A stretch of 64,000 bases of DNA from the NCBI RefSeq assembly GCF_900168115.1, contig NZ_FUZC01000003.1:248001-312000 (forward strand), written 5' to 3'. Source of the stretch: Salegentibacter salinarum (GTDB lineage Bacteria; Bacteroidota; Bacteroidia; Flavobacteriales; Flavobacteriaceae). The notes beneath the pieces were generated by a model. The model was given only the letters and a program-made list of their open reading frames with translations, was not told where the DNA came from and ran no database searches. This document shows, in pieces, positions 2,681 through 57,979 of the stretch. The translations under genes were made by a program, and so were the position numbers. Numbering within the stretch: position 1 is the first letter of the stretch; every line of letters starts with the position of its first letter.

Positions 2681-3688
2681 TTAATCGTTCCGCAGATGAT
2701 TAATGACTATTTTATCTCCAGAATCATCTACATTAAATAGATGTGGGATGCGAATATACCTTCCATTTTCATCTTCTCTGTGGCTGTGGACAGACATAAG
2801 CAATTTGCCTTCAAATGTGTGGAACATCATCCCGTGTCCATAATCTGGAGGGGTAATTAATTCTTTTTCGTGCTCCCATGGACCGTCCAGTGTGCCACTC
2901 TTAGAATAGGCGACACCCTGGGCATAAACACTGTGGTCCCAGCTGGTCCAAATCATTCCTAATTTCCCGGTTTTAGTTCGGAAAAGCCAGGGGCCGTCGG
3001 TTACTTTGTTGGGTACCTCATTGTCCTCTTCATCATATTCCTTGCTCCAGGGGGAATCACTGGCACGGAAGAGGATTTCTCCTTTCCCTATTGAGCCGCT
3101 TAGGTCAGGTTTTAGTTCTATTTTCTCCATAGTTCCATCCCAATTTTGAAGCCATTCGTGGCAGTAAATCATATATGGTTTACCATCTGTATCTTCCCAA
3201 AATGTACCATCCAGAGTAGGTTTTTCTGGCGGCAAATAAGTAAGATCTTCCATGGGTACGTAGGGCCCGTCGGGTTTGTCACTTACCAGGATATGGCTGG
3301 CACGACGCTCTATTTCGTTTCCTTTTACAGTATCAATAATGACATCCCTGTTGGTGAAGGTGGCGAAGTAATAGTACTTATCATTATATTGGTGTATTTC
3401 TGCAGCCCAAATCATTGGGTTATCTCCCATCCAGGAATTGGGATCTGTTTGTACGACATTAAAAGGACCTGTCCACATTTTTAAATCTTTACTTTTCCAT
3501 AACATACCACCGGTGCCAGTCATGTAATAAGTAGAGGTGGCATCATCGGCCAGAATAGCAGGGTCGCTTAGCCGGATAGAATCAAGGGGCACATTTTTTC
3601 TTATTTTATTCTCCCTGTTTTGTGAAAATCCTGCAGGGAAATTCATTAAAATTCCGACTACTATCAGAAAAATTTTTTTATACTCCAT
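2681..3688 (-). CDS. GH43 family glycosidase
   Basis: This 335-residue protein has a Sec signal (MEYKKIFLIVVGILMNFPAGFSQ) and a single five-bladed GH43 propeller. The base Asp is in LSDPAIL and the pKa-modulating Asp in LDGTFWED. Where the acid Glu is normally expected the protein reads VTDGPWL, with Asp in place of Glu. This variant may belong to a subfamily rather than being an inactivating change. GH43 enzymes usually remove alpha-L-arabinofuranose or beta-xylose, and some act on galactans. It lies between two GH2 genes and downstream of GH30, consistent with side-chain trimming of a galactan or arabinogalactan in the periplasm. The gap to the next upstream gene is only 35 bp, which supports an operon. 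Confidence 0.8.
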   Translation of the reverse strand: MEYKKIFLIVVGILMNFPAGFSQNRENKIRKNVPLDSIRLSDPAILADDATSTYYMTGTGGMLWKSKDLKMWTGPFNVVQTDPNSWMGDNPMIWAAEIHQYNDKYYYFATFTNRDVIIDTVKGNEIERRASHILVSDKPDGPYVPMEDLTYLPPEKPTLDGTFWEDTDGKPYMIYCHEWLQNWDGTMEKIELKPDLSGSIGKGEILFRASDSPWSKEYDEEDNEVPNKVTDGPWLFRTKTGKLGMIWTSWDHSVYAQGVAYSKSGTLDGPWEHEKELITPPDYGHGMMFHTFEGKLLMSVHSHREDENGRYIRIPHLFNVDDSGDKIVINHLRND

Positions 3689-3723
3689 TTGTTATTTCCT
3701 TTATTATGTAATAAAGCCTTTTT

Positions 3724-6135
3724 TTAAAAAGAAATCTCTTTTTCAGGAATTCCCGGAGAACTAATTTTAATATTAACTTCTTTGGCTTCACCTGTAGTTT
3801 CTATATAAGCTCTCAATTGTCCTTTGTAAGTATTTCTTTCTTTTGCCTGGTAACTTTCATGGCTGGATAAGTCTCCACTCTCCAGGCCAAGTAATTTTGC
3901 GGGGCCTTCAACTTCTATGCTTACTTCCCTGTCATCGTCTGTTATTCTGTTTCCTTCTTTATCGGTTAAAAGGATATCGAGGTGAATAATTTCTTCAATA
4001 CCCTCTGAAGACGATCTTTTATCAGTTTGAATTTGAAGATCTGTAGCCGTACCGGGAGTTACCAGTTTATATTCTGAGACTATACTGTCATTTTTATCAT
4101 ATCCTTTAACTAAAAGTTCTCCTGGGCTAAATGGTACTTCCCAGGCAATCATTTTGTCATTCTGATAAACCGCTTCTTTTCTTCCCAGGGATTCCCCGTT
4201 TAAAAACAATTCTACTTCCTCTGTGTTTGTATAGGCTGTAATCCATTTCGTTTGTCCTTCTTCACCTATCCAGGCTTCTTCGATATTGCTTCTCCTGTTT
4301 ACATCCCGTTCGCTATTGGCGACTCCTATGTAAACCATTGGTTGGTTATTCCATAAACTTTTCCGGAAGTAGAAATCAGGTTTGGGTTGTCCGGCAAGGT
4401 CTATAATGCCGGCGCCGCTGCTTCTTACCGGCCATTCCCTTGCCTCTCCAAGAAAATCAAAAGCTGTCCACAGAAACTGAGAAGAAATAAAGTCATTATT
4501 TACTACGGCAAGCCAGGCATCTAAGGCATCTCCATTTTCACTTCCGTAGATTACTCTCTCCGGAAATTCTTTATGATCTTCTTCGTATCTGTATTCCTGA
4601 TAGTTATAACCTACAATATCCAGCACAGAAGGGTAGAGGGTATGATTAGACATAGTTACCCCTGCCAGGGCAGCAGTTACCGGCCTTGTGGTGTCATACA
4701 TTTTAACGGCGTTTGCCAGTTCATTTGCCAGCTTAGCCAAATGACTCGCAGGAGGATTTTCTTTATTAAAACCTTTTCCGTAAATCTGGGGGTTTCTGCC
4801 TTCGTCCAGTACAGGATGGCTGTAAGGATCATTAGGATAATCTATTTCATTACCAATACTCCACATTATAATTGAGGGGCGATTACGGGTTCTTCTCACC
4901 ATATCCTGAACATCCTTTACTCCCCATTCTGAAAATGCCTCATGATAACCTTCATTTCCCGGGGTGCCTACGTTCCATCCTTCTATCCATTTGTTTTTGC
5001 CGTATTCCCATTCATCAAAAGCTTCCTCCTGTACAAGGAATCCCATTTCATCGGCCAGCTCATAAATAAAATCCTGGTGCGGGTAATGAGCCATTCTTAT
5101 AGCATTTACTCCTAATTCTTTTAAGGTCTCCATTCGTTTTTCCCAAACTTCTTTAGGAACAGCAGCTCCCAACGCCCCTGCATCATGGTGAAAACATACT
5201 CCTTTTAATAACATGTTCTCTCCATTTAGGAAAAATCCACGATCTGCATCAAAATGGAAGTCGCGAAAACCTACCTTTTCGTTCCATGCATCCACCTCAG
5301 TACTACCTTCTACAAGATTAACTTCTAAATCATATAAATAAGGTGAACCTGGAGACCAGAGTTTTGGATCATTAATTTCAAGATCAAATTCCAAATAATT
5401 TTCTTTACCTGGACGCAGGCTTATATCTTGTTTAGAAGTGGCAACAGAATTTCCGTCGTTATCTTTCAAATAAATCTGTACGGTTTTCTTACTAATCTCT
5501 TTTCCATGGTTTTCAAGTTCCACTGAAACTTTAGCTGTTGCACGTTCTTTTGAAACTTCGGGAGTTTGAAAAAATACCCCCCATTTGGAAAAATGATGTT
5601 CCTCCTGAGTAATTAAATAAACATTTCGATAAAGCCCCGAGCCAGTGTAATACCTGGAGTCTGCATAGTCAGTATGGTTTGCTTTTACTATTATGAGGTT
5701 ATTGTCAGCCTGTAAAAACGGCGTTAGGTCGTATTGAATAGGAATAAAGCCATTAGGTCTTTTACCCAGATAATGCCCGTTAATCCAAACTTCACTGTTT
5801 TTATAAATACCGTCAAAATAAACAGCATACCTTTTATTTTTATCGTAGTCCTTGAGATTAAAATCTTTTCTATACCAGCCTATTCCTCCCGGCAAAAAGC
5901 CGGTGCCGCTGGCCCATTCGCTGCTAAACGGGCCTTCCACACTCCAGTCATGAGGCACGTTTACCGGTCTCCAGCTTACTTGATCACTTGTAGCTCGCTC
6001 TATACTTAGATCACCTTTATGGAACGTCCAGGCATCATTGAATTTTTCCTTTCCCATTTGTTGGCTAAAAAGATCTGGAAGAGTGAAAAAGAATGCAACA
6101 AGTAAAAATACTCGAATGAAGGATTTTTTTCTCAT
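3724..6135 (-). CDS. GH2 beta-galactosidase-like enzyme
   Basis: This is an 803-residue secreted GH2 with a signal peptide ending near LPDLFSQ. The domain order is sugar-binding jelly roll (GGIGWYRKDF, VWINGHYLG), Ig-like domain, TIM barrel, then C-terminal Ig-like/DUF4982-type modules from about residue 640. The acid/base is Glu430 in MWSIGNE and the probable nucleophile is Glu533 in YGSENG. The length and DUF4982-type tail match the Bacteroidota GH2 beta-galactosidases common in pectin and galactan loci rather than E. coli LacZ. It follows the GH30 gene after 11 bp, so cotranscription is very likely. Expected role: release of terminal beta-galactose from oligosaccharides in the periplasm. 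Confidence 0.85.
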   Translation of the reverse strand: MRKKSFIRVFLLVAFFFTLPDLFSQQMGKEKFNDAWTFHKGDLSIERATSDQVSWRPVNVPHDWSVEGPFSSEWASGTGFLPGGIGWYRKDFNLKDYDKNKRYAVYFDGIYKNSEVWINGHYLGKRPNGFIPIQYDLTPFLQADNNLIIVKANHTDYADSRYYTGSGLYRNVYLITQEEHHFSKWGVFFQTPEVSKERATAKVSVELENHGKEISKKTVQIYLKDNDGNSVATSKQDISLRPGKENYLEFDLEINDPKLWSPGSPYLYDLEVNLVEGSTEVDAWNEKVGFRDFHFDADRGFFLNGENMLLKGVCFHHDAGALGAAVPKEVWEKRMETLKELGVNAIRMAHYPHQDFIYELADEMGFLVQEEAFDEWEYGKNKWIEGWNVGTPGNEGYHEAFSEWGVKDVQDMVRRTRNRPSIIMWSIGNEIDYPNDPYSHPVLDEGRNPQIYGKGFNKENPPASHLAKLANELANAVKMYDTTRPVTAALAGVTMSNHTLYPSVLDIVGYNYQEYRYEEDHKEFPERVIYGSENGDALDAWLAVVNNDFISSQFLWTAFDFLGEAREWPVRSSGAGIIDLAGQPKPDFYFRKSLWNNQPMVYIGVANSERDVNRRSNIEEAWIGEEGQTKWITAYTNTEEVELFLNGESLGRKEAVYQNDKMIAWEVPFSPGELLVKGYDKNDSIVSEYKLVTPGTATDLQIQTDKRSSSEGIEEIIHLDILLTDKEGNRITDDDREVSIEVEGPAKLLGLESGDLSSHESYQAKERNTYKGQLRAYIETTGEAKEVNIKISSPGIPEKEISF

Positions 6136-6146
6136 ATTTTCAATTT

Positions 6147-7703
6147 TTAATTAGTAGTTATAGTGACTATTGCTTTTGAAGGAATAGTAACCTCTGAATT
6201 TACTGTTTTTACCTCCAAATCTTTTTCAGAAGATGTTATAAAGGCTTTTAAATTTATTAATGATTCATCGGCTTGCTGCAAATTTACACTCAGCTCTTCG
6301 TTACTTTTATTAATAAGAACAATCACTGTTTCGTCATTATTGGGATTTTTATAAGCTGAATACAGGAAAGTGTCGGCTTTCGTATTATCTGAAGCTGTAA
6401 TTTGGACGCGTTGAAAACCAGGTTTAATAAAATGGCTATAATTGCCTAAAGCCCACAATATTTTACTCTCGTAGAAATTCCCGTCATTTTTTTGGTGATC
6501 TATATAAACAAGCCCATCCTTATAATCGTAAGGGGAGACGGCTAACCACCAATGCCAGGCAGTCGCATTAGCAATAGCCAGGTCAGCATGGATAATTCCG
6601 GCCACATAAAGCGCAGGATCAATTCCCAAGTCGCGGCCGTTGCCTTTCATGATTTCGTTGTTTTCTAAAATACAATATTCTGACATCCAAAATTTTAAAT
6701 TATCATAGTTGTCAATCTCATTTTTCACTTTATTCCTAACCTCTTTTACTTCTGAATAGGGATAAGTAGTAAAGTAACTGTGTCCCGAGATGGTATTACT
6801 TATCTTTGAGAAGTCTCCTACATAATTTTCAGAAGATTCATCAAAGAAGCTTTTGATTTGTTCCCCTCTTTGCGGCTTATTGTCTTTTTCATATAAATAG
6901 TTGAGTTGTGCAGTTTCTGGAATGTCGATTTTTACATCCAAATTTTCTTCTTCCAGTTTCTTGTTTAATTCCCTAATGAGGCTATGTATTTCATTGTTTC
7001 TAAAAGGAGTTCCTTCCTGGCCGCCATCAGACCAATCCCACTGGGGTTCATTAATTGGGCTAATATAATCGGGGTCCAGACCTTTTTCCTGAAATCCTTT
7101 TACCACATCCGATAAAAAGCCGGCGAATCTTGAATAATTTTCAGGAGCAAGATTAGTATTCTCATTCTCTGCATAAGCCTTGCCTGTCCTGGTCATTTGA
7201 ACTGGAGCACTATTAGAAAATAACAGTAGATTTTCTACTCCTCTTGCCTGTGCGGCCTCAGCAAACCAGATTTGACCACTTTGTTTTTCCCAATTGTAAG
7301 AGCCGTTATCGTTTAGGAAACCTTCAGCTCTACGCCACTCATCACTAATGCCACTATTCTCTCCCTGTTCGGCACTACCGGCTCCTATATTAAATCTCCA
7401 AAGAGATAAGCCGATCCCCAGGGGGTTACCTTGTTCATCTTTTTCGCTACTAAATAACAGGTCAGCAATTTTTTCTTTTTTGCTTTGGGGCCACTTTCCT
7501 ACGAATTGGGTGGACCAGGCATCAGAAGCACCAAAGTTATCTATAGTTTGAAAGGTCTCATCTCTATCGATATTTAAAGTGATTGAATTAGAAGGTGCTT
7601 CTCCATCATCGCCTTCTTGATTATTTGCATCAGAATTATTGTTGCAGGCGAAGAGAAGGCTGGTCAGAATGATTGAAAATACTATAAAAGTTTTTATTCT
7701 CAT
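6147..7703 (-). CDS. GH30 lipoprotein, possibly endo-beta-1,6-galactanase
   Basis: This 518-residue lipoprotein (lipobox LLFAC, Cys20) has a GH30 catalytic barrel and a C-terminal beta domain. The acid/base is Glu219 in SPINEPQW and the nucleophile is Glu342 in FWMSEYC. The N-terminal motif FQTIDNFGASDAW is characteristic of GH30. A surface lipoprotein encoded directly downstream of a SusCD pair typically starts depolymerisation outside the cell. Together with two GH2 and a GH43, an endo-1,6-galactanase (GH30_5-like) role on arabinogalactan side chains is plausible. Glucanase or xylanase members of GH30 cannot be excluded from sequence alone. A strong hairpin separates it from susD1. Confidence 0.82.
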   Translation of the reverse strand: MRIKTFIVFSIILTSLLFACNNNSDANNQEGDDGEAPSNSITLNIDRDETFQTIDNFGASDAWSTQFVGKWPQSKKEKIADLLFSSEKDEQGNPLGIGLSLWRFNIGAGSAEQGENSGISDEWRRAEGFLNDNGSYNWEKQSGQIWFAEAAQARGVENLLLFSNSAPVQMTRTGKAYAENENTNLAPENYSRFAGFLSDVVKGFQEKGLDPDYISPINEPQWDWSDGGQEGTPFRNNEIHSLIRELNKKLEEENLDVKIDIPETAQLNYLYEKDNKPQRGEQIKSFFDESSENYVGDFSKISNTISGHSYFTTYPYSEVKEVRNKVKNEIDNYDNLKFWMSEYCILENNEIMKGNGRDLGIDPALYVAGIIHADLAIANATAWHWWLAVSPYDYKDGLVYIDHQKNDGNFYESKILWALGNYSHFIKPGFQRVQITASDNTKADTFLYSAYKNPNNDETVIVLINKSNEELSVNLQQADESLINLKAFITSSEKDLEVKTVNSEVTIPSKAIVTITTN

Positions 7704-7726
7704 TACTTAAAATTTTAGTTTAAAAA

Positions 7727-7748
7727 AGGGAGAACACTGGTTCTCCCT
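7727..7748 (-). terminator. Intrinsic terminator/attenuator between susD1 and GH30
   Basis: Read on the minus strand there is a perfect 9-bp stem AGGGAGAAC/GTTCTCCCT with a 4-base loop, followed at once by TTTTTT. It lies 10 bp past the susD1 stop and about 24 bp before the GH30 start. It should terminate a fraction of transcripts, so that susCD mRNA exceeds enzyme mRNA. Confidence 0.85.
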
Positions 7749-7757
7749 CTTAAATTT

Positions 7758-9464
7758 TTAATAACCGGGATTTTGCTCCAACTGCCCATCGGAAGATTGG
7801 ATTTCCTGTCTGGGTATTGGGAGCCAGTAATGTTGTTCTTCAAAACTTCTTCCTTCTAGAGCAATTTTTCTATCATAAGAAAGACTACCGTCCTCAGCTT
7901 TTCTAATGTTAATTCCGTAAGCAGGCACGTTTTCTGTTTCCATCGCAATTTTCCAGCGACGTACATCGTAGAATCTGTGCTCTTCAAAAGCTAATTCAAC
8001 CCTTCTTTCCTGACGTATAGCCTCTCTCATCTCTTCCTGAGACAATCCTGCTGGGAGAGCTGGCATTTCTACTCCATTTCTACTCCTGATTTGGTTAACC
8101 GCATTGTAAACTGACTCGTCTGGACCTGAAACTTCATTTTGTGCTTCAGCGTAATTCAGTAATATTTCAGCATATCTGAAATATATCCAGTTTTGTGTTC
8201 CGGCTACTTCCCATGGATTCTGAATAGGTAAATCTTCGTTTATAAACTTCCTTAGGTAATATCCAGTTTTACTGGTATTCCAGTTATCAGGTCCGTCTTG
8301 GGAGTCAAGCCCACCCGGAGTAAAAGTTTCCACTTCGCGGCCACGATATTCCGCTCCGTTATATAATATGCTTTCATAAAACCGAGGATCTCTGTTTTCG
8401 TATGGTGAATTTGCTTCTTCTGGGTCATCCCAATTAAATTCTGAGCCATCTGCCATTTCATAATCATCCACCAGATTTTGTAACGGTACCTGGCCTCCCC
8501 AACCACCATAACCATTAGGGCCATTAGCAATCTCTAAAGCAGTATGTCTTTCATTGATGTTGTAATACCGGGCGAAAATAATTTCAGAATGACTCCCTTC
8601 TGTAAGAAACATATCAGCATACCCATCCTGATATAAGCTGTAAATTCCCAAATCCATTACATCCTGAGCTGCATCTGCTGCTCGTTGCCATTTCTGTGGG
8701 TCAGAATTGTCATTGTCGTATAAAGGACTGGCTGCATATAAGAGTAAACGAGATCTTAAAGCTAACGCAGCTCCTTTAGTTGCACGACCATCTTCCCATT
8801 CTCCGTCATTATGCAAAGGTAGACCTTCAGCAGCTTGATTTAATTCTTCAATAACATATTCAATGCTTTCTTGAATGGATGTTTTTTCGAAAAGTTCTGG
8901 GTTAGAAAAATCATCTCCCAATTCAGAAACCCGGTCTCCCATTAAAACTACTTCTCCATAGTTTCTAATTAAATCGTGATAACGAAATGCTCTAATGAAT
9001 TTTAATTCTGCTATTAGTTTTGCTTTTCCAGATTCGCTCATTTCGACATCACTTATATTTTTCAAAGCATAATTTACTTCTCTAATACTCCGGTAACTTC
9101 TACCCCAGAATGTTCCAAGAATACCTGTATTTTCTGGTGATAGTTGTCCCTGCTGAATTAACCATGTATTGTCGTCATTGTTATATATGGCCTCATCAGT
9201 TACTGTACCCATCATTGCGTATTCATAACCTCTACCGAAACCTGGAACAGAGCCATCTCCCTCCTTATCGGTTAATCTTACCCCTAAATATCGGTTGATT
9301 ACATACGCTTCAAATAACGTTGAATCTTGGACTATGGCCACTTCTGATAGTCGATCGGTTGGATTTACTTCTAAAAAATCCTTTTCACAACCGATAAAGG
9401 TTACAGCAAGGAATAATATTCCTAACCTTATAGATGATAGTTTTAATAATATATTATTTTTCAT
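7758..9464 (-). CDS. SusD-like glycan-binding outer-membrane lipoprotein (SusD1)
   Basis: This 568-residue RagB/SusD-family lipoprotein opens with a signal ending IGCEKDFLEVNPTDRL. Family hallmarks are the N-terminal TPR-like region (ELKFIRAFRYHDLIRNYGEVVLM), the C-terminal NQIRSRNGVEMP and EEHRFYDVRRWK segments, and the terminal motif LPIPRQEIQSSDGQLEQNPGY. It forms the lid over the SusC transporter and captures oligosaccharides at the cell surface. It starts 5 bp after susC1 stops, and the pair is followed by a terminator-like hairpin. The ligand cannot be read from sequence; neighbours suggest a galactan-type glycan. Confidence 0.95.
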   Translation of the reverse strand: MKNNILLKLSSIRLGILFLAVTFIGCEKDFLEVNPTDRLSEVAIVQDSTLFEAYVINRYLGVRLTDKEGDGSVPGFGRGYEYAMMGTVTDEAIYNNDDNTWLIQQGQLSPENTGILGTFWGRSYRSIREVNYALKNISDVEMSESGKAKLIAELKFIRAFRYHDLIRNYGEVVLMGDRVSELGDDFSNPELFEKTSIQESIEYVIEELNQAAEGLPLHNDGEWEDGRATKGAALALRSRLLLYAASPLYDNDNSDPQKWQRAADAAQDVMDLGIYSLYQDGYADMFLTEGSHSEIIFARYYNINERHTALEIANGPNGYGGWGGQVPLQNLVDDYEMADGSEFNWDDPEEANSPYENRDPRFYESILYNGAEYRGREVETFTPGGLDSQDGPDNWNTSKTGYYLRKFINEDLPIQNPWEVAGTQNWIYFRYAEILLNYAEAQNEVSGPDESVYNAVNQIRSRNGVEMPALPAGLSQEEMREAIRQERRVELAFEEHRFYDVRRWKIAMETENVPAYGINIRKAEDGSLSYDRKIALEGRSFEEQHYWLPIPRQEIQSSDGQLEQNPGY

Positions 9465-9469
9465 AATTC

Positions 9470-12400
9470 TTAAATTTGGATATTTAAACCTAAATTAATA
9501 ATTCGTTGCTGTGGATAAAATTGCCCGCTTTCGCTGGCCCCTTCAGGATCGTAATCTTCTACTTCAGTAATAGTAAATACATTAAATCCACTAGCGTATA
9601 TCCTCGCACTAGAAACTGAAAATCTTTCTAACAAGGTGGAGGGGATTGAATAACCAATCTGGATATTCTTAAGTCTTACAAATGATGCGTCATCCAACCA
9701 AAAATCATTTCTAAACAAACCACCACTTACTGCGGATGAAGCTCTTTCACTTACACGAGGATATGAGCCATTTGGGTTGTCTGGACTCCAGCGATTATCT
9801 GCCCAACTACTGTAATAATTTCCAACTGTGCCAGATTCCGGTAATACATATTGACTAACGTTTGTTTGTCCAGAAAATAAAGCTGAGAAATCAAAATTTT
9901 TCCATTCAGCATATAAATTTAAGCCGAATGTTATTTCTGGGATATTGCCATATTCTGTTCTATACCTATCATCAGCATTAATTTCTCCATCTCCATTTAT
10001 ATCCTCATAAATTAAATCTCCAGGCTGAGCCCCTGGTACGTGTGGATAATCTTCTAACTCTGCTTCTGATCTGAAAATTCCTAATGTTTTATAAAGTAAA
10101 TAAGTATTCATAGGTCTCCCAGTTTGTTGTTGGTATTCTGGCAGGCCGGGAGCTTCATCCATAAAAATAACTTCATTCGTAGCATAGGTAAGATTACCTG
10201 ACACTCCGAAGTTAAAATCTTCTCCAGAATAATCATAACCTAATACTGCTTCTATACCATGACTTTCAACTGAACCAATGTTTTCTGAAGGAACTAAAGA
10301 CTGAGCATCATACGGGTTTACTATTCCGCTAGTAGCTGGTATTGATGCATTTCTGGTTGTTAAGATATTTGAACGATCTTGTCTAAAGTAAATGAATTCA
10401 GTAGTGAAATTATCTAACCATCTCGCGTCAAACGCAATATCAGTTTTAATAGCTTCTTCCCAGGTGATATTAGGATTTGCAAGTCTAGTAAGATCAATGC
10501 CAGTTGTAACCTGGTTTCCAATAACATAGCGGTTGTTAAAACTGTAATTGTTAAAGTATTGAAACTGGCCAACATTATCATTTCCTAGCTTACCGTGTGA
10601 AGCGCGAAATTTTAAATCATTAAAAAAGGAAATACTTTCTTTAAACCATTCTTCTTCTGTAATTCTGTAACCTACCGATACAGATGGAAAAACACCATAT
10701 CTATTTCCTTCCGGGAAAATAGAGGAGCCGTCTATACGCATTTGTAATTCAGCTAAATATTTTTCATCATAATCATAAGCTATTCTACTTAAGTAGCTTA
10801 ATCTCGTAAAATTATAACTGCTTCCATAATTATCATAATCTGCTGCTGCAGCTCCACCTTGAGATAACTCTGGAGTTTCTGTGGTAGGGAAATGAATTCT
10901 TGAGGCTCCCATTGTGTGAGATTTATTCTCACTTTGCTCATAACCAATAAACGCATCTACATTATGGGCCCCAAATTGCTGGTTATAGTTTAATTTAATA
11001 TTACCAACAGTTTTTGATTCGTTAAAATGTTCTTCATACAATGCGGCTTCCTGATCTGGCCCCCCTCCTACAACTCGCGGTATATACTCATCATTTCTAT
11101 ACTCATATAATGTATAAGGTGTTATGAAATTCTTTGTACGGTTAGAACTTTCATCTATAGAAAAGAATCCGTCAATCGATAAACCCTCGAGAAATGGGAT
11201 ATCATAGCTTCCTCTTAAAATTCCATTAAAAACATATTTCGGATTCTCATTAATTCCACCTGCATCTGTAGCTCTTACCAAGGGGTTGCTTAATTCAATA
11301 CCTGTAGAGGGATTACCATTCGGGAAAACGGCGGGACTGGTAGGGTAAGCCCTATAAAGAGATCTGAAAATTTCTCCTGCACCTGTAGTAGGGAATTGTC
11401 TGTCCTCTTTTCTTCCATTCAGGGATAAACCAACCTCCAATCTATCTGTAATATCCACATCCAGGTTAGACCTTACACTGTATTGGTCGTACCTATTTGC
11501 TCCGTCTTTATATATACCATCCTGTCCAATTTTTCCAAGTGAGAAAAAGTATCTGGCGTTATCACCACCCCCACGAACGTTTAAGTTCTGTTGGGTTTGG
11601 ATTGTGGTGTTTTGAAGACCTTCTTCAGGCCAGTTTGTATTAGGGTAATTTATAGGATCGCTTCCATCCCTAAACAAATTTATTTCTTGATCTGAATAAA
11701 TTTGATTAAATCCATCAGAAGGATTATTGTAATAAGCTATCTCATTTCTAATATTTGCGTAAGTTGGAGCATCTGCCAAATCAGGTAATCTGGTTGGAGA
11801 TGCAATACCTACATCAATTTTATAAGAAATTTGAGGAGCTGCATTTCTACCTTTTTTTGTAGTAATTAATATTACTCCATTGGCAGCACGACTTCCATAA
11901 ATTGCAGCGGAAGCATCTTTTAAGACGGTGAAACTTTCAATATCTTCGGGGGACAGTCGTGACAAGCCTCCAATCTGGCCCGGCACACCATCGACTACAA
12001 CCAGTACATCATTGTTACCTGTTGTAGCAAGCCCTCTTATAGAAATACTCGAATCATCGTATCCCGGTTCACCACTCCTGTTATTGGCAATAACCCCTGG
12101 CACTCTACCTGAAATTGAATTAGATAAGTTGGGTTGAGGGCTACGTTGAAGTTCTTCAGATTCTACTTCAGAAATAGAACCTGTTAAGGTGGCTCTCTTT
12201 TTGCCACCGTAACCAACTACTACTATTTCATCTAATTGTCCTAGATCTTCTACTAAGGTCACATTAAGACTGTTAGTTTCATTAACCTCTACTTCCTGGG
12301 TTTTAAAACCAATGTAAGAAAATACAAGAGTAGCACCGGAACTCGAAACTCCTATCTCGTAATTTCCATCAAAATCAGTAACCACACCATTGTTGGTGTT

Positions 12401-12571
12401 TTTTTCCTGAACAGTTACTCCAGGTAGAGGTAATCCTGCTTCATCAGAGACAAGGCCTGTAACTTCCTTTTGCTGAGCAAAAAGTAGGGTAGTAAACAGT
12501 AAGAAAAATACAGAAAGATATTTCTGGCATTTTTCCGATTTAAGAAAAATTTTTGACATACTTTTTATCAT
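9470..12571 (-). CDS. SusC-like TonB-dependent outer-membrane transporter (SusC1)
   Basis: This is a 1033-residue TonB-dependent transporter. After the signal peptide (ending LLFAQ) comes a carboxypeptidase-D-like regulatory domain (KEVTGLVSDEAGLPLPGVTV, YIGFKTQEVEV). Next are the SusC signature LDEIVVVGYG, the plug (VLVVVDGVPG, SIEVLKDASA-type motif, GSRAANGVILITTKKG) and a long beta-barrel ending in RIINLGLNIQI. The first Met or Met5 could be the start. It pairs with SusD1 to import oligosaccharides using TonB energy. The N-terminal domain is almost identical to that of SusC2. A divergent HTCS gene and candidate operators lie just upstream, so induction by its own oligosaccharide is likely. 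Confidence 0.95.
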   Translation of the reverse strand: MIKSMSKIFLKSEKCQKYLSVFFLLFTTLLFAQQKEVTGLVSDEAGLPLPGVTVQEKNTNNGVVTDFDGNYEIGVSSSGATLVFSYIGFKTQEVEVNETNSLNVTLVEDLGQLDEIVVVGYGGKKRATLTGSISEVESEELQRSPQPNLSNSISGRVPGVIANNRSGEPGYDDSSISIRGLATTGNNDVLVVVDGVPGQIGGLSRLSPEDIESFTVLKDASAAIYGSRAANGVILITTKKGRNAAPQISYKIDVGIASPTRLPDLADAPTYANIRNEIAYYNNPSDGFNQIYSDQEINLFRDGSDPINYPNTNWPEEGLQNTTIQTQQNLNVRGGGDNARYFFSLGKIGQDGIYKDGANRYDQYSVRSNLDVDITDRLEVGLSLNGRKEDRQFPTTGAGEIFRSLYRAYPTSPAVFPNGNPSTGIELSNPLVRATDAGGINENPKYVFNGILRGSYDIPFLEGLSIDGFFSIDESSNRTKNFITPYTLYEYRNDEYIPRVVGGGPDQEAALYEEHFNESKTVGNIKLNYNQQFGAHNVDAFIGYEQSENKSHTMGASRIHFPTTETPELSQGGAAAADYDNYGSSYNFTRLSYLSRIAYDYDEKYLAELQMRIDGSSIFPEGNRYGVFPSVSVGYRITEEEWFKESISFFNDLKFRASHGKLGNDNVGQFQYFNNYSFNNRYVIGNQVTTGIDLTRLANPNITWEEAIKTDIAFDARWLDNFTTEFIYFRQDRSNILTTRNASIPATSGIVNPYDAQSLVPSENIGSVESHGIEAVLGYDYSGEDFNFGVSGNLTYATNEVIFMDEAPGLPEYQQQTGRPMNTYLLYKTLGIFRSEAELEDYPHVPGAQPGDLIYEDINGDGEINADDRYRTEYGNIPEITFGLNLYAEWKNFDFSALFSGQTNVSQYVLPESGTVGNYYSSWADNRWSPDNPNGSYPRVSERASSAVSGGLFRNDFWLDDASFVRLKNIQIGYSIPSTLLERFSVSSARIYASGFNVFTITEVEDYDPEGASESGQFYPQQRIINLGLNIQI

Positions 12572-12614
12572 TTAAATAGTTAGATTATTAAAAAAATTTC
12601 AAATAGATTTTAGA

Positions 12615-12625
12615 AAACGATTTCG
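12615..12625. promoter_or_regulatory. AAACGATTTCG site shared upstream of susC1 and susC2
   Basis: This 11-base string lies 44-54 bp before the susC1 start. An identical copy lies 30-40 bp before susC2. Its core CGA-TT-TCG is a short inverted repeat. It could be a regulator or promoter-associated site; the function is unproven. Confidence 0.35.
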
Positions 12626-12683
12626 TAAAATAGGTTTCTCGATTGTCGATAGACAAGTTTCGTAATTCGTAGTGGAAAGTTAA

Positions 12684-12720
12684 GGGGGTATAATGTCAAA
12701 AAACAGGGGGTAAATTGTGC
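12684..12720. promoter_or_regulatory. Candidate HTCS operator: GGGGGTA direct repeats 22 bp apart
   Basis: GGGGGTATAATGT begins at 12684 and GGGGGTAAATTGT at 12706. The repeats share 11 of 13 bases and are spaced two helical turns apart, the arrangement expected for AraC-type DNA-binding domains of HTCS regulators. They sit between divergent susC1 and the HTCS gene. Confidence 0.55.
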
Positions 12721-12784: not shown

Positions 12785-15700
12785 ATGAAAATTCGTTACT
12801 TAATTTTTTTTATTCTGATTCTAAAAACCAGTTTCCTGGTGAGCCAAAATTCTATTAAAGATGGCTCGCTGGGGGATAGTTTGCATTTTCATCTTCTGGA
12901 TGTCTCTTCAGGTTTGTCACATAATTTTATAAATGATATAAAACAGGATTCACTTGGTTTTATGTGGATTGCAACCATAGATGGTCTAAATCGATATGAT
13001 GGCAATCAATTTGTCCAGTTTAAAAAACAGCGTGGGTCATCAGAGAGGGGATTGGTTAATAATTATATCCAGCAATTGGAGCTAAAGAATGGTAAAGAGT
13101 TAGTAGTAGCTACCGATGCTGGTCTTGTTATTTATAATTCTAGAATAGATAAATTCCAGTTAATAAATACTGAAGACGGTTTGTTAAATAATAGTGTGAG
13201 TGCTATTGAGACGGGCCCAGGTGATAATTCTGTTATTGGAACTTACCGAGGGGGAATTCAATTTGCTAATAATAAGTGGGATCTTAAATATTCGAGGGAA
13301 AACTTCGTCCAAAATATAAACCTTACTTCAAATGAAATTTCATCTATACAACTGCAGCAAGATAGTATTTTATGGGTAGGTACATACAATGATGGACTTA
13401 ATAAGATAAATCTTAAGAACGGGAGAGTAAGCCATCTTTTTGAAAAAAATAAATCAACTACTTCACGGGTAATTAATAGTTTATATGAAGATATTGATGG
13501 GAATTTGTGGGTGGGCACAAGAAATGGTTTGCATGTTATTACAAGGTTAAATGATACTATTAGCATCAACGCAAAGTCTGGATCACAAGGCTTAAGTGAT
13601 ATGGATGTGCTGTGCTTTGAAGAAGACCTGAATAATAATATTTGGATAGGGACTAGAAACGGTGGGCTTAATATTCTTGAGAAATCTTCCTTGTTTAATG
13701 ATAGTTCTAATATTAATATTCGGAGATATTTACCAAGAAATGATGGAAGTAGTGTATATAATAGAACAGTTTCAGTTATCACCAGGGACAAGGATAACAA
13801 TATGTGGATTGGGACCCCTACTGGTATAAATTATGTCAATCCACTTGGAGATCCAGTAAGACTTATCACGCATAGTGCAGATAAGAAATCAATAAGTCAT
13901 AATAGAATTGGTGCCTTGGCACAAAGCGGAGAGGGTAAGGTCTGGATTGGTACCGACGGAGGTGGTCTTGATCTCTATGACCCACAAACCGGAATTATTT
14001 TTAATTATCATCATAATGAAGAAGATCAGAGTAGCTTGAGCAATAATTATATATTGTCAATTCTCGAGGATAGTAAAGACCGTATTTGGGTAGGAACTTA
14101 TCAGGGAGGCCTTAATAGATTGGATATAAAAAATGGAAAAGCCAGACATTATCTTCAGGGCTCGGTTTCTAACGGAAGTGATGTGCGGGTGATATTTGAA
14201 TCCAGGAATGGAACAATTTGGGTTGGTACAAATCGAGGAGGTTTATACAAATACATTGAAGGTAAAGATAGGTTTAAATACATTGAATCCTTAGGAAAGA
14301 TTGATATACGTTCAATAGTAGAAGATCAGGAAGAAGGTGTTTTGTGGTTTGCTACTTTTGGATCGGGATTAATTAAGTATAATCCTGAAGCCGATGATTT
14401 TCAGAGTTTTAATGAAGATAATACTAAGGGGTTTAATAGCGATATCATATTTTCAGTATTGCTGATGGAAAACGGAGAAGTGTTGGCAGGTACAAGATTT
14501 GGCGGGATACTCCGATTTAATCCAAAAACTAAGGAAGTGCTAACTTTTTCCGTAGAGGATGGTTTAAGTAATAATACCGTAAATAGTCTTATATGGGAAG
14601 ATGAGACTTATATATGGATGGGAACCTATAACGGAATAAATCGTTATAATGTGGAAACAAATGAAATATTGGATGTTTCTTCTTTGGATAATCTCCAGTC
14701 GGGGGAATTCAATATTGGTGCAGCCCTTAAGAATTCTTCAGGAAACCTTTATTTCGGTGGTAATAATGGTTTGAACATTTTGGATCCGAATCATTTTAAG
14801 AGAGTAAAACAGGATTATCCTTTGTTATTTCAAGGTCTTAAAGTCCTCAATAAAACTGTTGAAGTAAGGGTAGAAGAAAAAAATTCCATTCTCAGGCAAG
14901 CGATTTTTTACCAGGATAAAATCAAATTAAACCATAACCAGAATTCTTTTTCCGTGGAATTTGCATCACTCAAATATCCGGAAGCTCATAATTTGACATA
15001 TTCTTACAAACTTGAAAACCATAATAAATATTGGATTGAAGATCAAAAGGAAGGTATAGCCAACTTCACTAGTGTTCCTCCCGGAGAATATATACTGAAG
15101 GTACGCGTTAATTCCGGTGTCAATACTAAAAATTATAAAGAATTAAAATTCAATATTGTCCCTCCCATCTGGAAAACATGGCCTGCTTATTTATTATATT
15201 TTATTATGGCTACTATCTTGATCTGGATAAGTTTTAAGTATTATTCGGAGCGTGTTCACCTAAAAAATTCCCTCCTATTTGAGAAAAAGCAGCGTCATTT
15301 AGAAAAGGATTTAAACGAAGAACGGTTTAGGTTTTTTACGGCTTTTTCTCATGAACTTAAAACTCCTCTAACTTTAATTCTGGCTCCAGTTGAGAATCTT
15401 CTGGAAATTCAAAACAAAAAGATAAAAACAGATTTATTGTTTATTCAGAGAAATGCCCGCAAGTTGCATCATTCAATTAATAAATTATTAGAGTTTAGAA
15501 AGGCCGAAGAAGGTTTGAGCCAATTGAATAGAAGGGAACATGATATTTCTGAGAATCTAAAAACATGGATAGAAAATTACCTTCCTCTAGCGAAAGAAAA
15601 AAATATAACATTAGAGTATTCCCTTCCCGTAGACAAAAAAATATTCAATGTGGATATTGAAAAGATTGAAGTTGTAATTAATAATTTACTTTCTAACGCA

Positions 15701-16858
15701 ATAAAGTATTGTAAAATTAATGGTGAAGTCAAAATCTCACTGATTTGTAATAGTGACAATTTTAAAATAACTGTAAGTGATACAGGAACAGGTATTAGTA
15801 AAGAAGAATTGTCTCATATTTTTAACTGGTATTATCGCTCCAATTCTAACGTTAAGGAAAAAGGGAATGGGATAGGATTGGCATTGTCGAAGCGTTTCGC
15901 AGAATTGCACGGTGGAAGTATTCATGCAGAAAGTACGCCCGAAGAGAAGACGATCTTTACTCTTGCAGTTCCTGCAGTCGAAATTAAGGAGGTTGAGGAG
16001 CATTTGAATAGGGATGATGAAAAGGTCGTTACCGGGCAGGTGTTTTCAGATAATATTAAGTCGCGTAAACAAACAGCCAATCTTAAACCCAATAAGGATA
16101 GACGGCTCATTCTTATTATAGATGATAACGAGGAAATTTTAAATTTTCTTAGTAATATTTTTAAGGAGGAATATGATATAATACACTCAAGAAATGGGAG
16201 AGAAGGAATTGTTAAAGCTTCCAATTATGTTCCTGATCTTATAATTTCAGATGTTATGATGCCAGAAAAAAACGGGGTAGATTTATGTTTTGAATTAAAG
16301 CAGCAGCATTCCACAAGCCATATTCCTATAATTCTTCTCACTGCTAAAGGAAATTTTGAAAGTATAAATTTAGGTTATGAGCAGGGGGCTGATGATTATA
16401 TTGTCAAACCTTTCAATCCTAAATTGTTAAAAACCCGTGTTAAGAATTTATTGTTTAGTAGAGAGCAACTTCAACATCATTTTAAAGGTGTGAGGGAGAA
16501 TAAATCAAAAACGGAAGAAAAAGTTTCAGTATTGCTAACGAAGGAAAAGGAATTTCTTTCTGAACTCGATCTCATAATTGCAAAGAATATGGGTAAAGGT
16601 ACAGATAATGTTGATTTAATCTCACAAAAAGTTGGAATGAGCAGAACCTCCTTATATAGAAAACTGAAAGCAATTACCGGCTTGAGTATAAATGAATATA
16701 TTAGAAATTTGAAAATTGAAAGAGCCGCAGAACTTATTAAAAATGAAAATTTTTCAGTTTCCCAGGCATCTTATGAGGTTGGCTTTACTAACTTAAAGTA
16801 TTTTAGAAAGATATTTAAAGAAAAATTTGGTAAAACTCCAAGAGAGTTTAAATCATAA
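12785..16858 (+). CDS. Hybrid two-component system sensor/regulator (HTCS)
   Basis: This single 1357-residue protein joins all elements of a two-component system. The signal peptide MKIRYLIFFILILKTSFLVSQ is followed by about 14 Reg_prop propeller repeats (many IWVGT and MWIGT motifs, residues ~30-700), which form the periplasmic sensor. Then come a Y_Y_Y domain (~730-795), one membrane helix (~799-820, WPAYLLYF), a HisKA helix with His856 in FSHELKTP, an HATPase (NNLLSNAIKYC, ~965), a receiver domain with phospho-acceptor Asp1156 in ISDVMMP, and an AraC-type HTH (~1270-1357). HTCS proteins bind oligosaccharides in the periplasm and activate the adjacent PUL. It is divergent from susC1, so region A is the expected target. 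Confidence 0.95.
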   Translation: MKIRYLIFFILILKTSFLVSQNSIKDGSLGDSLHFHLLDVSSGLSHNFINDIKQDSLGFMWIATIDGLNRYDGNQFVQFKKQRGSSERGLVNNYIQQLELKNGKELVVATDAGLVIYNSRIDKFQLINTEDGLLNNSVSAIETGPGDNSVIGTYRGGIQFANNKWDLKYSRENFVQNINLTSNEISSIQLQQDSILWVGTYNDGLNKINLKNGRVSHLFEKNKSTTSRVINSLYEDIDGNLWVGTRNGLHVITRLNDTISINAKSGSQGLSDMDVLCFEEDLNNNIWIGTRNGGLNILEKSSLFNDSSNINIRRYLPRNDGSSVYNRTVSVITRDKDNNMWIGTPTGINYVNPLGDPVRLITHSADKKSISHNRIGALAQSGEGKVWIGTDGGGLDLYDPQTGIIFNYHHNEEDQSSLSNNYILSILEDSKDRIWVGTYQGGLNRLDIKNGKARHYLQGSVSNGSDVRVIFESRNGTIWVGTNRGGLYKYIEGKDRFKYIESLGKIDIRSIVEDQEEGVLWFATFGSGLIKYNPEADDFQSFNEDNTKGFNSDIIFSVLLMENGEVLAGTRFGGILRFNPKTKEVLTFSVEDGLSNNTVNSLIWEDETYIWMGTYNGINRYNVETNEILDVSSLDNLQSGEFNIGAALKNSSGNLYFGGNNGLNILDPNHFKRVKQDYPLLFQGLKVLNKTVEVRVEEKNSILRQAIFYQDKIKLNHNQNSFSVEFASLKYPEAHNLTYSYKLENHNKYWIEDQKEGIANFTSVPPGEYILKVRVNSGVNTKNYKELKFNIVPPIWKTWPAYLLYFIMATILIWISFKYYSERVHLKNSLLFEKKQRHLEKDLNEERFRFFTAFSHELKTPLTLILAPVENLLEIQNKKIKTDLLFIQRNARKLHHSINKLLEFRKAEEGLSQLNRREHDISENLKTWIENYLPLAKEKNITLEYSLPVDKKIFNVDIEKIEVVINNLLSNAIKYCKINGEVKISLICNSDNFKITVSDTGTGISKEELSHIFNWYYRSNSNVKEKGNGIGLALSKRFAELHGGSIHAESTPEEKTIFTLAVPAVEIKEVEEHLNRDDEKVVTGQVFSDNIKSRKQTANLKPNKDRRLILIIDDNEEILNFLSNIFKEEYDIIHSRNGREGIVKASNYVPDLIISDVMMPEKNGVDLCFELKQQHSTSHIPIILLTAKGNFESINLGYEQGADDYIVKPFNPKLLKTRVKNLLFSREQLQHHFKGVRENKSKTEEKVSVLLTKEKEFLSELDLIIAKNMGKGTDNVDLISQKVGMSRTSLYRKLKAITGLSINEYIRNLKIERAAELIKNENFSVSQASYEVGFTNLKYFRKIFKEKFGKTPREFKS

Positions 16859-21651: not shown

Positions 21652-22551
21652 AATAGTTTTTTGGTTTAGATAATTAACTCAAACGATTTCGAATAACTTA
21701 ATGTAAACATAAAGATCTTTTTTAAATGTGCAAAGTACGTTTATTAAAGTGTCAAAAATTTAACAAAAAAAAGGTTAAAATATGGTTTATATTTCCATAG
21801 TAAATTATCTTAATCCTATTGATTCCATAGGCTTGTAATCGATTGAAATCAAAAAGTTAAATTACTGTTAAATTAAAAATATAGAGGTGAAAAACTCAAA
21901 CAGAGTAAAATTTGGTGGAAATCAATTAGAGTGAGTAATTACTAGTATTTTCCAATTTAAAATTTATTTTTATTGAATTTATTGCTTTGGGTAATTACCC
22001 TCCTGGGATTATAAATAAAGAGAAATAAGACTAAACTTATTATTAAGTCAAAGGTTTTTTATATGTAATAAATTGATTATTAGTTTTTTAATTTCAGATA
22101 ATTAAGATGTTGGTTTTTTTGTTAATATAGTTTTTGATGTTTGCGACGTTTTATAACGCAAATTTTTACTTTTATTTTATTCCTGAAAATGAGTGGTTCT
22201 ATGGATAAATCTCATTTTACATAAAGGAAGTTATTAAACGTAGGATAAACATTTATTTTTTATATTAGCCGCAATACTATAAGATTATTAATGAATTTAA
22301 GAACCGTATTGTACTTTGGTTAACAAATAATTAAATTTCGAAGTAAACCTAAATATCTCTATGTAAATATGTTACAAAAAAATATTTTACCTCTTTTTTT
22401 AGATTAAAAAATCGTCATAGGATTTAACTTATATAGACTGAAGTACGAGACCAGTTTGATTAAAACCTATGTCCATATAAATATAGGTTTACTGAGTTAT
22501 CTCTTTGAAAATTTTTCCTTCAAAAAGGAAGGAAATATAAAATATAAGAAA
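21652..22551. other. 900-bp AT-rich divergent intergenic region
   Basis: No credible coding frame, tRNA or IS remnant is visible. The region holds AAACGATTTCG (21681-21691), TTGTAATCGATTG with the palindromic core AATCGATT (around 21834-21846), and an inverted repeat TTTGCG/CGCAAA (22140-22162) with CGTT/AACG nested inside it. It must contain the promoters for susC2 and for the GH43 operon. Its length is unusual for this compact locus, and a small RNA or long leader is possible but not demonstrated. Confidence 0.5.
22140..22162. promoter_or_regulatory. Inverted repeat TTTGCG-N11-CGCAAA
   Basis: The six-base arms TTTGCG and CGCAAA flank an 11-base spacer, and the inner bases CGTT/AACG form an alternative dyad. 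It lies about 390 bp before the GH43 start. It may be an operator for an unknown regulator; nothing else supports it. Confidence 0.3.
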
Positions 22552-55120: not shown

Positions 55121-57979
55121 CTAATTTTTTTCCTGATTTTTTCTGAAATCAAACCATAGTTTCATGGTAATTCCATCGTCTCCGCTTTTAATTCGGATAT
55201 TCGTCGGTTGGCTGCTTGGTCCTTGATGTTCCAGAGGTTTAAAGGCTCGCATAGCAGGAATTTCATACATAAATGAAATATCTCCTTCCGGGAATTCCGG
55301 TTGTGGATGTACTTTAGAAACCGCATGTTCAGGCTCGGCTGGAGTGAATAAGCGCAGGAACATATTATCGTTCTCGCTAAACACCCTGAAGCCTTGATCC
55401 CCTGCACTTAAAAATCCACCTAAGAAATTGGCGTGATAACCTTTAAATTCAGGGTAGATGAGATTCTCGTAACTTTCACCGGTAATGGTATTATTATAGT
55501 CTTTTTGCCAAATAGAATATTCGGTTCCTTTTAAGCGGTTTTTCCATACACGGTAAGGTCCTTTTCCAAACCATTTAAAACCTTCAACTCCTTCTTCAGG
55601 AAAATCAAATGTAATCCCGAATTTATCAATATTCCCTTCGTAAAATGCACCATCAAAACCATCACCTCCCCTTGCATTTGTTAGGGCGGTCATGTGCATA
55701 TGCAAACGACCGTCTGGGTACATCGTCCACACAATACTTTCTATGCCGCCACCGTATTTAGCCGTAAAAATCGATTTATCCCCATCCTGGCTAATCTGAA
55801 AGTTCTGAAATTCGGCCTTCATTCCTATTGGCCGTGGACCATTGTGAAATGGGATTTCGTTTTCACCGCTGGAAACTGATGTAAGTAGACCTGTTGTTTT
55901 ATCAAAACTTACTTTTATATCATTTCCGGAAAGTGTGATGTTATTTTCGCTTTCTTCAGCAGAAGCAGCTTGTTGGTTCTCTTCATCCAGTAAAAATTTA
56001 TCGGCGAAATAATCGGCACGGTGAATAGGCCAGGTCCAGGTGTAAATTTCCCTTTCGTGTTGATCCCAGGCTGTAATTTCCAACCAATCACCTTCAAAAA
56101 AATTCTCCCCTGGCTGAAAATTGATTTTTCGTGTTTCTCCCGGAACTGCGTCTGGTAAATTTATTTCTCCAGAAGCTATTTCACTTACTTCCGAATCACT
56201 GTAAAGTATTTCTTCCGGAGCTTTCATTACCTCGTACTTCATTTTAGCAGAGTTCAGGTTACTAAAGAGGAAGTCGTTTGTCACTAAAAAAGAGCCGTCA
56301 AAAGTTTGTGTAATTAAGCGCGGTTCAAACTGGATGGGTGCCCAAACTTCTTTGATTGTATAAAAACTACCTTCTTTTTGACGGTGTGGTCCTAAAATTC
56401 CATCGGCGGCAAGGTTTCCTTTGGAGTCATATTTTCTTTCCCCCTCCCAATCGCTTCTTATCACGGCGTTATCACTGAAATCCCATATGAATCCACCGGC
56501 AAATAACGGACTCTCTTTATACTTATTCCAGAAATCATCTAAACCGGCACCGTGACCATTATCATAGGTTCCGTGCATAAATTCCGTAGGAAAAAATACA
56601 TTTTCCCCGGACCCAAAGCGATGCACGCCAGTTTGGTATGTGGGGTAGTGGTGGGTGTCCCAACCGTTAAAATCGGCCCAGGGATGAATAACTATTCTTT
56701 TTTGCGGGTCATAATCGTGAAAAACCGAATCCAGTTCATAATTCCAACCTCCTTCATTTCCCTGGTCCCAGATGATAACTGAAGCGCTATTTACATCCCT
56801 TTTTACAGTTTCTTTCACCAATTGGCTCCCGGATTCCGTGTCATAAGGGTTTTGCCATCCAGCCAGTTCATTTAAAACAAAAAGGCCTAAAGAGTCGGCG
56901 GCTTCCATAAAATGTTTGTCGGCCGGGTAATGAAAACGAACTGCGTTCATATTCATATCCTTGATGAGGTTTACGTCCATTACACTAATGCGTTTGCTGG
57001 TGCTTCGGCCAGATTCCGGCCATAATGTATGTCGATTTACCCCTTTCATTAATATTTTCTTGCCATTAACGTAAATACCATCTTTTTTTCTGAATTCCAG
57101 GGTTCGAAATCCAATGCGATCTGAAGTTTCGTGCAGCGTTTTTCCGTTTTGGACGAGTTTCAGTTTTAACTCATATAAATTTGGACTTTCAGGATCCCAG
57201 GTTTTTACGTTATCCCATTTTGCTTCAATAATTTCTTTCTCAGTGTTCTCTGCAACAGGAAAACTAAAGGTTTCAAATTCTTGGGTTTGTTCTCCTACAG
57301 CGGAGATTTTAGCTTCAATTTTCGTATTATCGGGAATGTTTTTTAGGTCTACCTCCGCGGTTAGACTTCCATCCATTTTTGCATCTACCGCAAAATGAAC
57401 TATATGAGAATTGGGTTTTATTTCCAGCCATACCGGTCTATAAATTCCTCCAAACAGCCACCAGTCCGCTTTGCGTTCCGCGTTATTTACCGTGGGGTTT
57501 GCGGAATGTTTCCAAACGTGAACCTCCAGTAAATTTTCTTCACCATATTTTAGAAACTCGGTAATATCATATTCAAATTGGTAAAACCCTCCCTGATGCT
57601 TAGGGCCTACCACTTCGCCGTTAATCTTAACCTCGGTATCGGTCATAGCACCACCGAAAACTATTTTAACTGCTTTACCTTTGTTATCGACTGGAACTTC
57701 AAATGTATGTTTATAAAAGCCTTCTTCTTTACTGGGTTCTTCCAGGTTTAATTCTTTATACCAACGGCCATAAGTATAAGTTCCAAATCCTTCAATTTCC
57801 CATTGGGAGGGAACATTAATGTTGCTCCATTCGTTACTGTTTCTGCCATCACTCACCTTAAAATCCCATTCAACAGGTTCCTCAAAGCTTTTACCTGATA
57901 AATAAATTTTCTCTGTTTGTTGTGCGGTAAGTTGTAAGCTTCCTAAAATTAGAAAGGTAAATAGTAAGTGTTTTTTCAT
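55121..57979 (-). CDS. GH2 beta-galactosidase (LacZ type with small-chain domain)
   Basis: This 952-residue secreted enzyme has a signal ending LQLTAQ. LacZ-type order: jelly roll (VPSQWEIEGFGTYTYGRWY, DTEVKINGEVVG), Ig domain, barrel, second Ig domain, and C-terminal Bgal_small_N domain (from ~690; ISFDKTTGLLTSV-like, GFKWFGKGPYRVWKNR). The acid/base is Glu409 in DQGNEGG and the nucleophile is Glu466 in FPTEFMHG. The acid/base motif departs from the usual SLGNE. The region between the glutamates contains HHYPTYQTGV and the FIWDFSDNAV segment expected of LacZ-type barrels. It follows the single-domain SGNH gene after about 60 bp. A beta-galactosidase role on pectic galactan is likely, with beta-glucuronidase as an alternative. 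Confidence 0.88.
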   Translation of the reverse strand: MKKHLLFTFLILGSLQLTAQQTEKIYLSGKSFEEPVEWDFKVSDGRNSNEWSNINVPSQWEIEGFGTYTYGRWYKELNLEEPSKEEGFYKHTFEVPVDNKGKAVKIVFGGAMTDTEVKINGEVVGPKHQGGFYQFEYDITEFLKYGEENLLEVHVWKHSANPTVNNAERKADWWLFGGIYRPVWLEIKPNSHIVHFAVDAKMDGSLTAEVDLKNIPDNTKIEAKISAVGEQTQEFETFSFPVAENTEKEIIEAKWDNVKTWDPESPNLYELKLKLVQNGKTLHETSDRIGFRTLEFRKKDGIYVNGKKILMKGVNRHTLWPESGRSTSKRISVMDVNLIKDMNMNAVRFHYPADKHFMEAADSLGLFVLNELAGWQNPYDTESGSQLVKETVKRDVNSASVIIWDQGNEGGWNYELDSVFHDYDPQKRIVIHPWADFNGWDTHHYPTYQTGVHRFGSGENVFFPTEFMHGTYDNGHGAGLDDFWNKYKESPLFAGGFIWDFSDNAVIRSDWEGERKYDSKGNLAADGILGPHRQKEGSFYTIKEVWAPIQFEPRLITQTFDGSFLVTNDFLFSNLNSAKMKYEVMKAPEEILYSDSEVSEIASGEINLPDAVPGETRKINFQPGENFFEGDWLEITAWDQHEREIYTWTWPIHRADYFADKFLLDEENQQAASAEESENNITLSGNDIKVSFDKTTGLLTSVSSGENEIPFHNGPRPIGMKAEFQNFQISQDGDKSIFTAKYGGGIESIVWTMYPDGRLHMHMTALTNARGGDGFDGAFYEGNIDKFGITFDFPEEGVEGFKWFGKGPYRVWKNRLKGTEYSIWQKDYNNTITGESYENLIYPEFKGYHANFLGGFLSAGDQGFRVFSENDNMFLRLFTPAEPEHAVSKVHPQPEFPEGDISFMYEIPAMRAFKPLEHQGPSSQPTNIRIKSGDDGITMKLWFDFRKNQEKN

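Follow-up and report, generated by a model that had tools for sequence, protein, structure and literature searches.

A predicted two-turn operator between susC1 and an HTCS gene of Salegentibacter salinarum and its fixed distance from a -7-like promoter element

Described HTCS sites and the susC1/HTCS locus

Regulators of the hybrid two-component system (HTCS) type govern much of the glycan foraging in Bacteroidota, and few of their operators outside Bacteroides were found in the literature. In Bacteroides, motifs have been predicted for 16 HTCSs (Ravcheev et al. 2013, PMC3878776); all of them are direct repeats, on average 21 bp apart. In the accessible text of that study the repeats are read as sites of dimers on the same face of the helix, two turns apart, and motif similarity tracks that of the HTH domains. 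The response-regulator parts of B. thetaiotaomicron HTCSs shift PUL promoter fragments that hold predicted HTCS sites, the pairs given in the accessible parts of the reports being BT4124/bt4114, BT4663/bt4662 and BT0366/BT0365, two of which concern promoters of susCD homologues; there, DNA binding needs phosphorylation and the histidine kinase dimer keeps two DNA-binding domains close together (PMC11253607, PMC5061871). A further described arrangement is that of XylS at the Pm promoter, where, according to the accessible text, two 15-bp direct repeats consist of two boxes each and the proximal repeat overlaps the -35 box by two bases (PMC4225500, PMC5481539). A literature search, with most subscription papers and supplements outside its reach, found neither HTCS sites described for Flavobacteriaceae nor a constant spacing reported between such sites and the -7 box.

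The site described here is located in a 64-kb stretch of the S. salinarum genome, hereafter called the window, and was predicted from sequence, whereas the B. thetaiotaomicron pairs are experimental. Like the Bacteroides motifs (PMC3878776), it is a two-site direct repeat (12-16 bp in the examples seen there) upstream of HTCS-linked polysaccharide-locus genes, and it has the features by which such sites were described: a direct repeat of two sites about 21 bp apart, a position upstream of susC/susD in an HTCS-encoding PUL, conservation and a link to the HTH domain. Unlike them, it occurs in Flavobacteriaceae, has the consensus GGGGTA..AAATTG and a period of 22 bp, and belongs to a clade in which the spacing to the -7 box appears fixed, a feature without mention in the accessible text of PMC3878776. 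With XylS at Pm it would share an AraC-family activator, a pair of direct repeats and a proximal repeat that abuts or overlaps the -35 region (-33 in the window, in the numbering proposed below), although XylS is a soluble one-component regulator acting on a proteobacterial promoter through a different sequence. Two-turn direct repeats are an already published form of predicted HTCS sites, and the predicted promoter geometry is a useful addition to it, as a well-supported detail.

The two repeats, GGGGGTATAATGT at 12684-12696 and GGGGGTAAATTGT at 12706-12718, were read directly from the sequence and start 22 bp apart, which confirmed the original prediction of repeats at this distance between susC1 and the HTCS gene. 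They lie in a 213-bp gap between susC1 (9470..12571, minus strand), the predicted target, identified from gene calls and Pfam domains as coding for a TonB-dependent receptor, and the HTCS gene (12785..16858, plus strand), which codes for the predicted regulator. The ATG at 12571 is absent from the nearest named orthologues (L116-L118), in which a second ATG, at 12559, is kept, so that susC1 more likely starts at 12559. The rest of the predicted target operon (2681..9464, minus strand) consists of susD1 (7758-9464) and genes coding for GH30 (6147-7703), GH2 (3724-6135) and GH43 (2681-3688) family enzymes; judged from gene order and strand, susC1-susD1-GH30-GH2-GH43 would form one operon, and the family names of this gene set alone suggest a galactan or arabinogalactan-like substrate. 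The HTCS has 1357 residues and combines a periplasmic propeller sensor (Reg_prop, Y_Y_Y), a histidine kinase (HisKA, HATPase_c), a receiver and an AraC-type HTH in one chain, its best sequence match among solved chains being 12aw, a hybrid two-component system protein.

With the matrix scans described below, the predicted operator units were delimited as AGGGGGTATAATGTCA at 12683..12698, the unit nearer susC1, and AGGGGGTAAATTGTGC at 12705..12720, 22 bp after it, both on the plus strand. The 16-bp units form a direct, not an inverted, repeat. Exact matches to GGGGGTANANTGT in the window are limited to these two repeats. The tandem score of the pair was equalled in 2 of 1000 dinucleotide shuffles of the gap when any lag of 8-60 bp was allowed, and in none of 1000 at lag 21-22. 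The paired pattern GGGGGTANANTGT-N9-GGGGGTA, with 3 mismatches allowed, occurs once in the 4,308,139 bases of the genome, adjoining the HTCS gene. The accompanying statement that runs of G are rare in this DNA was correct only in part, with 33 starts of GGGGG and four of GGGGGTA on the two strands of the window.

Conservation of the tandem repeat in related HTCS loci

The last 129 residues of the HTCS were used as a query against 397 genomes of the host family, and matches with E 1e-20 or better were obtained in 136 of them. Upstream regions were compared for the 20 closest matches by DNA-binding domain and for 60 others. These 80 comparison loci were hand-picked, 77 of them from the family-genome search (the 20 best matches after the window, followed by a selection in which some matches were skipped) and three from another search. 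Scanning the relatives with the literal consensus of the window missed several sites because the unit varies, and it was replaced by a shared matrix obtained with an EM model.

In the EM model, the window and its 20 closest relatives were fitted with a single 16-bp matrix applied twice at a given lag, with 19 lags competing. Lag 22 scored highest (197.8), followed by lags 23 (149.3) and 12 (139.3), so the two-turn geometry originally proposed emerged from the model itself. The unit consensus was approximately A/G-GGG-T-A-Y-AAA-T-T-G. When each locus in turn was left out, the window scored 29.9 and none of 200 shuffles was as good; the same was true of 14 of the 20 closest relatives (scores 19.3-31.3), in which the units all share one orientation relative to the HTCS gene. 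One relative, L034, was borderline (1 of 200 shuffles) and the result was not significant in the other five (L037, L039, L044, L050 and L051), the upstream region of L037 having been fetched inside the gene. No site scoring at least 18 was found in the 24.5-38.5 kb around three of the 20 closest relatives (G049, G342 and G311).

Among the 60 HTCS loci with less similar domains, two reached a score of 14 on the same strand and one on the opposite strand. Similarity of the motif thus tracks that of the HTH domain (14 of 20 closest loci vs 2 of 60), a contrast weakened by most of the 60 being without a recognisable adjacent susC. With a matrix built without the window, the site at 12683 ranked top in the 64 kb, with 30.8 vs 14.5 for the next site at lag 22. 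The same matrix also gave a weak tandem at 57045 on the minus strand, AAGGGGTAAATCGACA / TGGCCGGAATCTGGCC, at lag 23 with a score of 22.3, inside the ORF 55121-57979.

The original prediction had named a lack of conservation in orthologous loci as evidence that would speak against it. This comparison was run, and the tandem was found to be kept both upstream of most HTCS genes that code for a closely similar DNA-binding domain and in all three nearest named orthologues, from Salegentibacter sp. oa5, Salegentibacter sp. 24 and Christiangramia crocea (80, 71 and 73 % identity), the pairs in the three orthologues scoring 36.3, 35.0 and 28.3. When 81 HTCS upstream regions were autocorrelated, the two strongest lags were 22 and 21 (z 4.2 and 4.0), which is what the use of two-turn repeats by many HTCSs would give; the best lags of single loci were noisy.

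A -7-like element at fixed distance from the repeat

The -7 box of Flavobacterium psychrophilum, TAnnTTTG, spans positions -12 to -5 according to the accessible text of PMC9723704. The promoter regions of 16 loci, the window and 15 relatives, were anchored on the repeat and read toward susC; L044, for which the leave-one-out score was 6.2 with 12 of 200 shuffles as good, was left out. Conserved positions, with the number of loci in agreement, were T18 (13), G22 (15), A23 (15), A24 (14), A26 (13), T27 (16), T28 (16), G29 (15) and T30 (15). These include a GAAnATTG element on the susC side, 21 bp from the near edge of the repeat; apart from the positions listed, the next best were near the null level. 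Common descent alone is a poor explanation of the element, since the stretch between it and the repeat is without such conservation.

Agreement with TAnnTTTG in the 16 loci averaged 4.06 of 6 places at offset +22, compared with 1.94 overall. In the window, the element in this register is GAAACTTG (12654..12661, minus strand; offset +22 to +29 from the repeat), a putative -7-like element of the susC1 promoter, which agrees with TAnnTTTG in no more than 4 of the 6 positions; the three nearest orthologues read GAAAATTG instead. The HTCS/susC promoters with adjacent genes in the 16 loci mostly carry GAAnATTG, with the G at -12 kept, and at sites elsewhere in the PULs TAnnTTTG or CAnnTTTG is more frequent at this offset. 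Among 58 more distant HTCS loci (L080 and L111 left out), none had an operator-to--7 spacing at p < 0.1, with 5.8 expected.

The matrix was also run over 829,113 bases around related PULs, in 47 stretches, some of which overlap. It found 26 sites scoring at least 18, as against 3 with the reversed matrix; 14 of them were training sites and 12 were new, all of the latter scoring at least 20. Eight of the 12 new sites have at least 5 of the 6 places of TAnnTTTG at exactly +22, with TAATTTTG, TAACATTG, CAAATTTG and similar sequences at that offset, while any other offset had at most one such site. Given the measured background, 8 of 12 sites would agree in one offset by chance with a probability of 4e-14; an assumed background of 6 % raises this to 7e-8. 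As for the remaining four, L206:6802 represents the second register within an array of three copies, GAATATTG lies at +22 in L215 and one base off in L228, and L213 carries GAATATTT. Several of the new sites precede ORFs which by length and leader resemble susC, being of SusC size with signal-peptide-like starts, and some, around the HTCS genes of G115 and G061, belong to PULs in which site and HTCS gene are not neighbours.

Arrays of more than two units were also seen. At L206:6780-6840 (G061:C1) three operator copies are arranged head to tail, 22 bp apart, and three similar copies at 22 bp were read by eye in L074.

Predicted role of the repeat and alternatives to it

The repeats are predicted, with good though not full confidence, to serve the adjacent HTCS as its operator for the activation of susC1-susD1-GH30-GH2-GH43. 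With the -7 box at -12 to -5, the susC1 promoter would be covered by the repeat from about -34 to about -71. The membrane dimer of the HTCS would sense a periplasmic oligosaccharide and its receiver domain would become phosphorylated; the two tethered AraC-type domains could then dock on the pair of 16-bp direct repeats, which with a spacing of 22 bp, or two turns, share the same face of the helix. Since the proximal repeat would end at about -34, the bound regulator may replace the -33 box and recruit RNA polymerase to the poor -7 box GAAACTTG, which would switch on the operon; binding, phosphorylation, activation, start site and inducer all belong to this proposal. It is somewhat less certain, and still favoured, that this Flavobacteriaceae HTCS clade activates its promoters in this way at a fixed register, with the tandem operator followed after 21 bp by the -7 box, possibly as a general grammar.

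That the repeat is accidental is hardly credible: single units are indeed neither rarer nor commoner in the window than expected (13 found with 2 mismatches allowed, 15.4 expected), yet the pair was not equalled in the 1000 shuffles at lag 21-22 and is conserved in relatives and orthologues. The tandem could instead be bound by another AraC-type or unrelated regulator, and the genome does contain further HTCS genes. This is very unlikely, given that the tandem follows the similarity of the DNA-binding domain of this particular HTCS and that the strict paired pattern is found once in the genome, beside this HTCS gene. Only slightly less unlikely is an operator that serves autoregulation of the HTCS gene (12785, plus strand) and not susC1. 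The pair does lie 65-102 bp upstream of the HTCS start, and in G115, where the region immediately upstream of the HTCS gene is coding, the site L200:14886 faces in the HTCS direction about 1.7 kb before the gene, so that some HTCS genes may use such a promoter. However, the 14 relatives with significant scores differ in the distance to the called HTCS start (-32 to -454), whereas the -7-like element toward susC keeps a single offset, and this fixed distance points to susC1 as the gene served by the predicted site, a choice that the original prediction had left open. In addition, the HTCS genes of G061, which has an operator-like array nearby, and of G115, which has two sites scoring at least 20 (27.2 and 31.4) and a weaker one (17.5) in its surroundings, are not beside these sites, which are found at a distance from the HTCS start, in front of or close to ORFs of SusC size (1036 and 1035 aa). 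HTCS genes are, furthermore, typically constitutive at a low level, according to the accessible text of PMC6874557.

Improbable, although the most probable of the alternatives, is that the operator serves susC1 from further upstream, with the repeat near -60 and GAAnATTG being a -33 element or the site of an unrelated factor. The TTG of GAAnATTG fits the Flavobacterium -33 consensus, and the window has TATTTTAC 21 nt after this TTG, with identical letters in L116 and similar ones in L117. The susC1 5′ leader would then be about 60 nt, rather than the approximately 90 nt implied when GAAnATTG is taken as the -7 box, which would be long and counts against that assignment. In the 16 loci, however, TAnnTTTG-like matches do not cluster further downstream, between +46 and +60, and in the untrained sites TAATTTTG, TAACATTG, CAAATTTG and the like sit at +22 itself. 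If GAAnATTG is indeed the -7 element, this poor variant, used mostly in the adjacent HTCS/susC promoters of the clade, would make these promoters dependent on an activator. A defined operator whose position relative to the -7 box is constant would render HTCS targets, and also start sites, readable from sequence alone, and would offer a clear mutational test of HTCS activation.

A further sequence in the gap, GAAAACGATTTC (12613..12624), is a near-palindrome with a central CG, resembling a LacI operator, between the -7-like element and the susC1 start. The part of it designated AAACGATTTCG also occurs at 21681-21691, and so precedes both susC1 and susC2; with up to 1 mismatch allowed, these two exact copies were the only ones in the window, compared with 1.8 expected. 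The pattern extended by NA gave 4 sites in the genome vs 3 for the reversed control, one of the 4 being located between genes which by eye were named dnaK-like and serine-dehydratase-like, and for these reasons AAACGATTTCG was dropped from the finding and no regulon is claimed for it. AAACGATTTCG is kept in L116, L041 and L046 and is present with a change in L117, L118 and L047.
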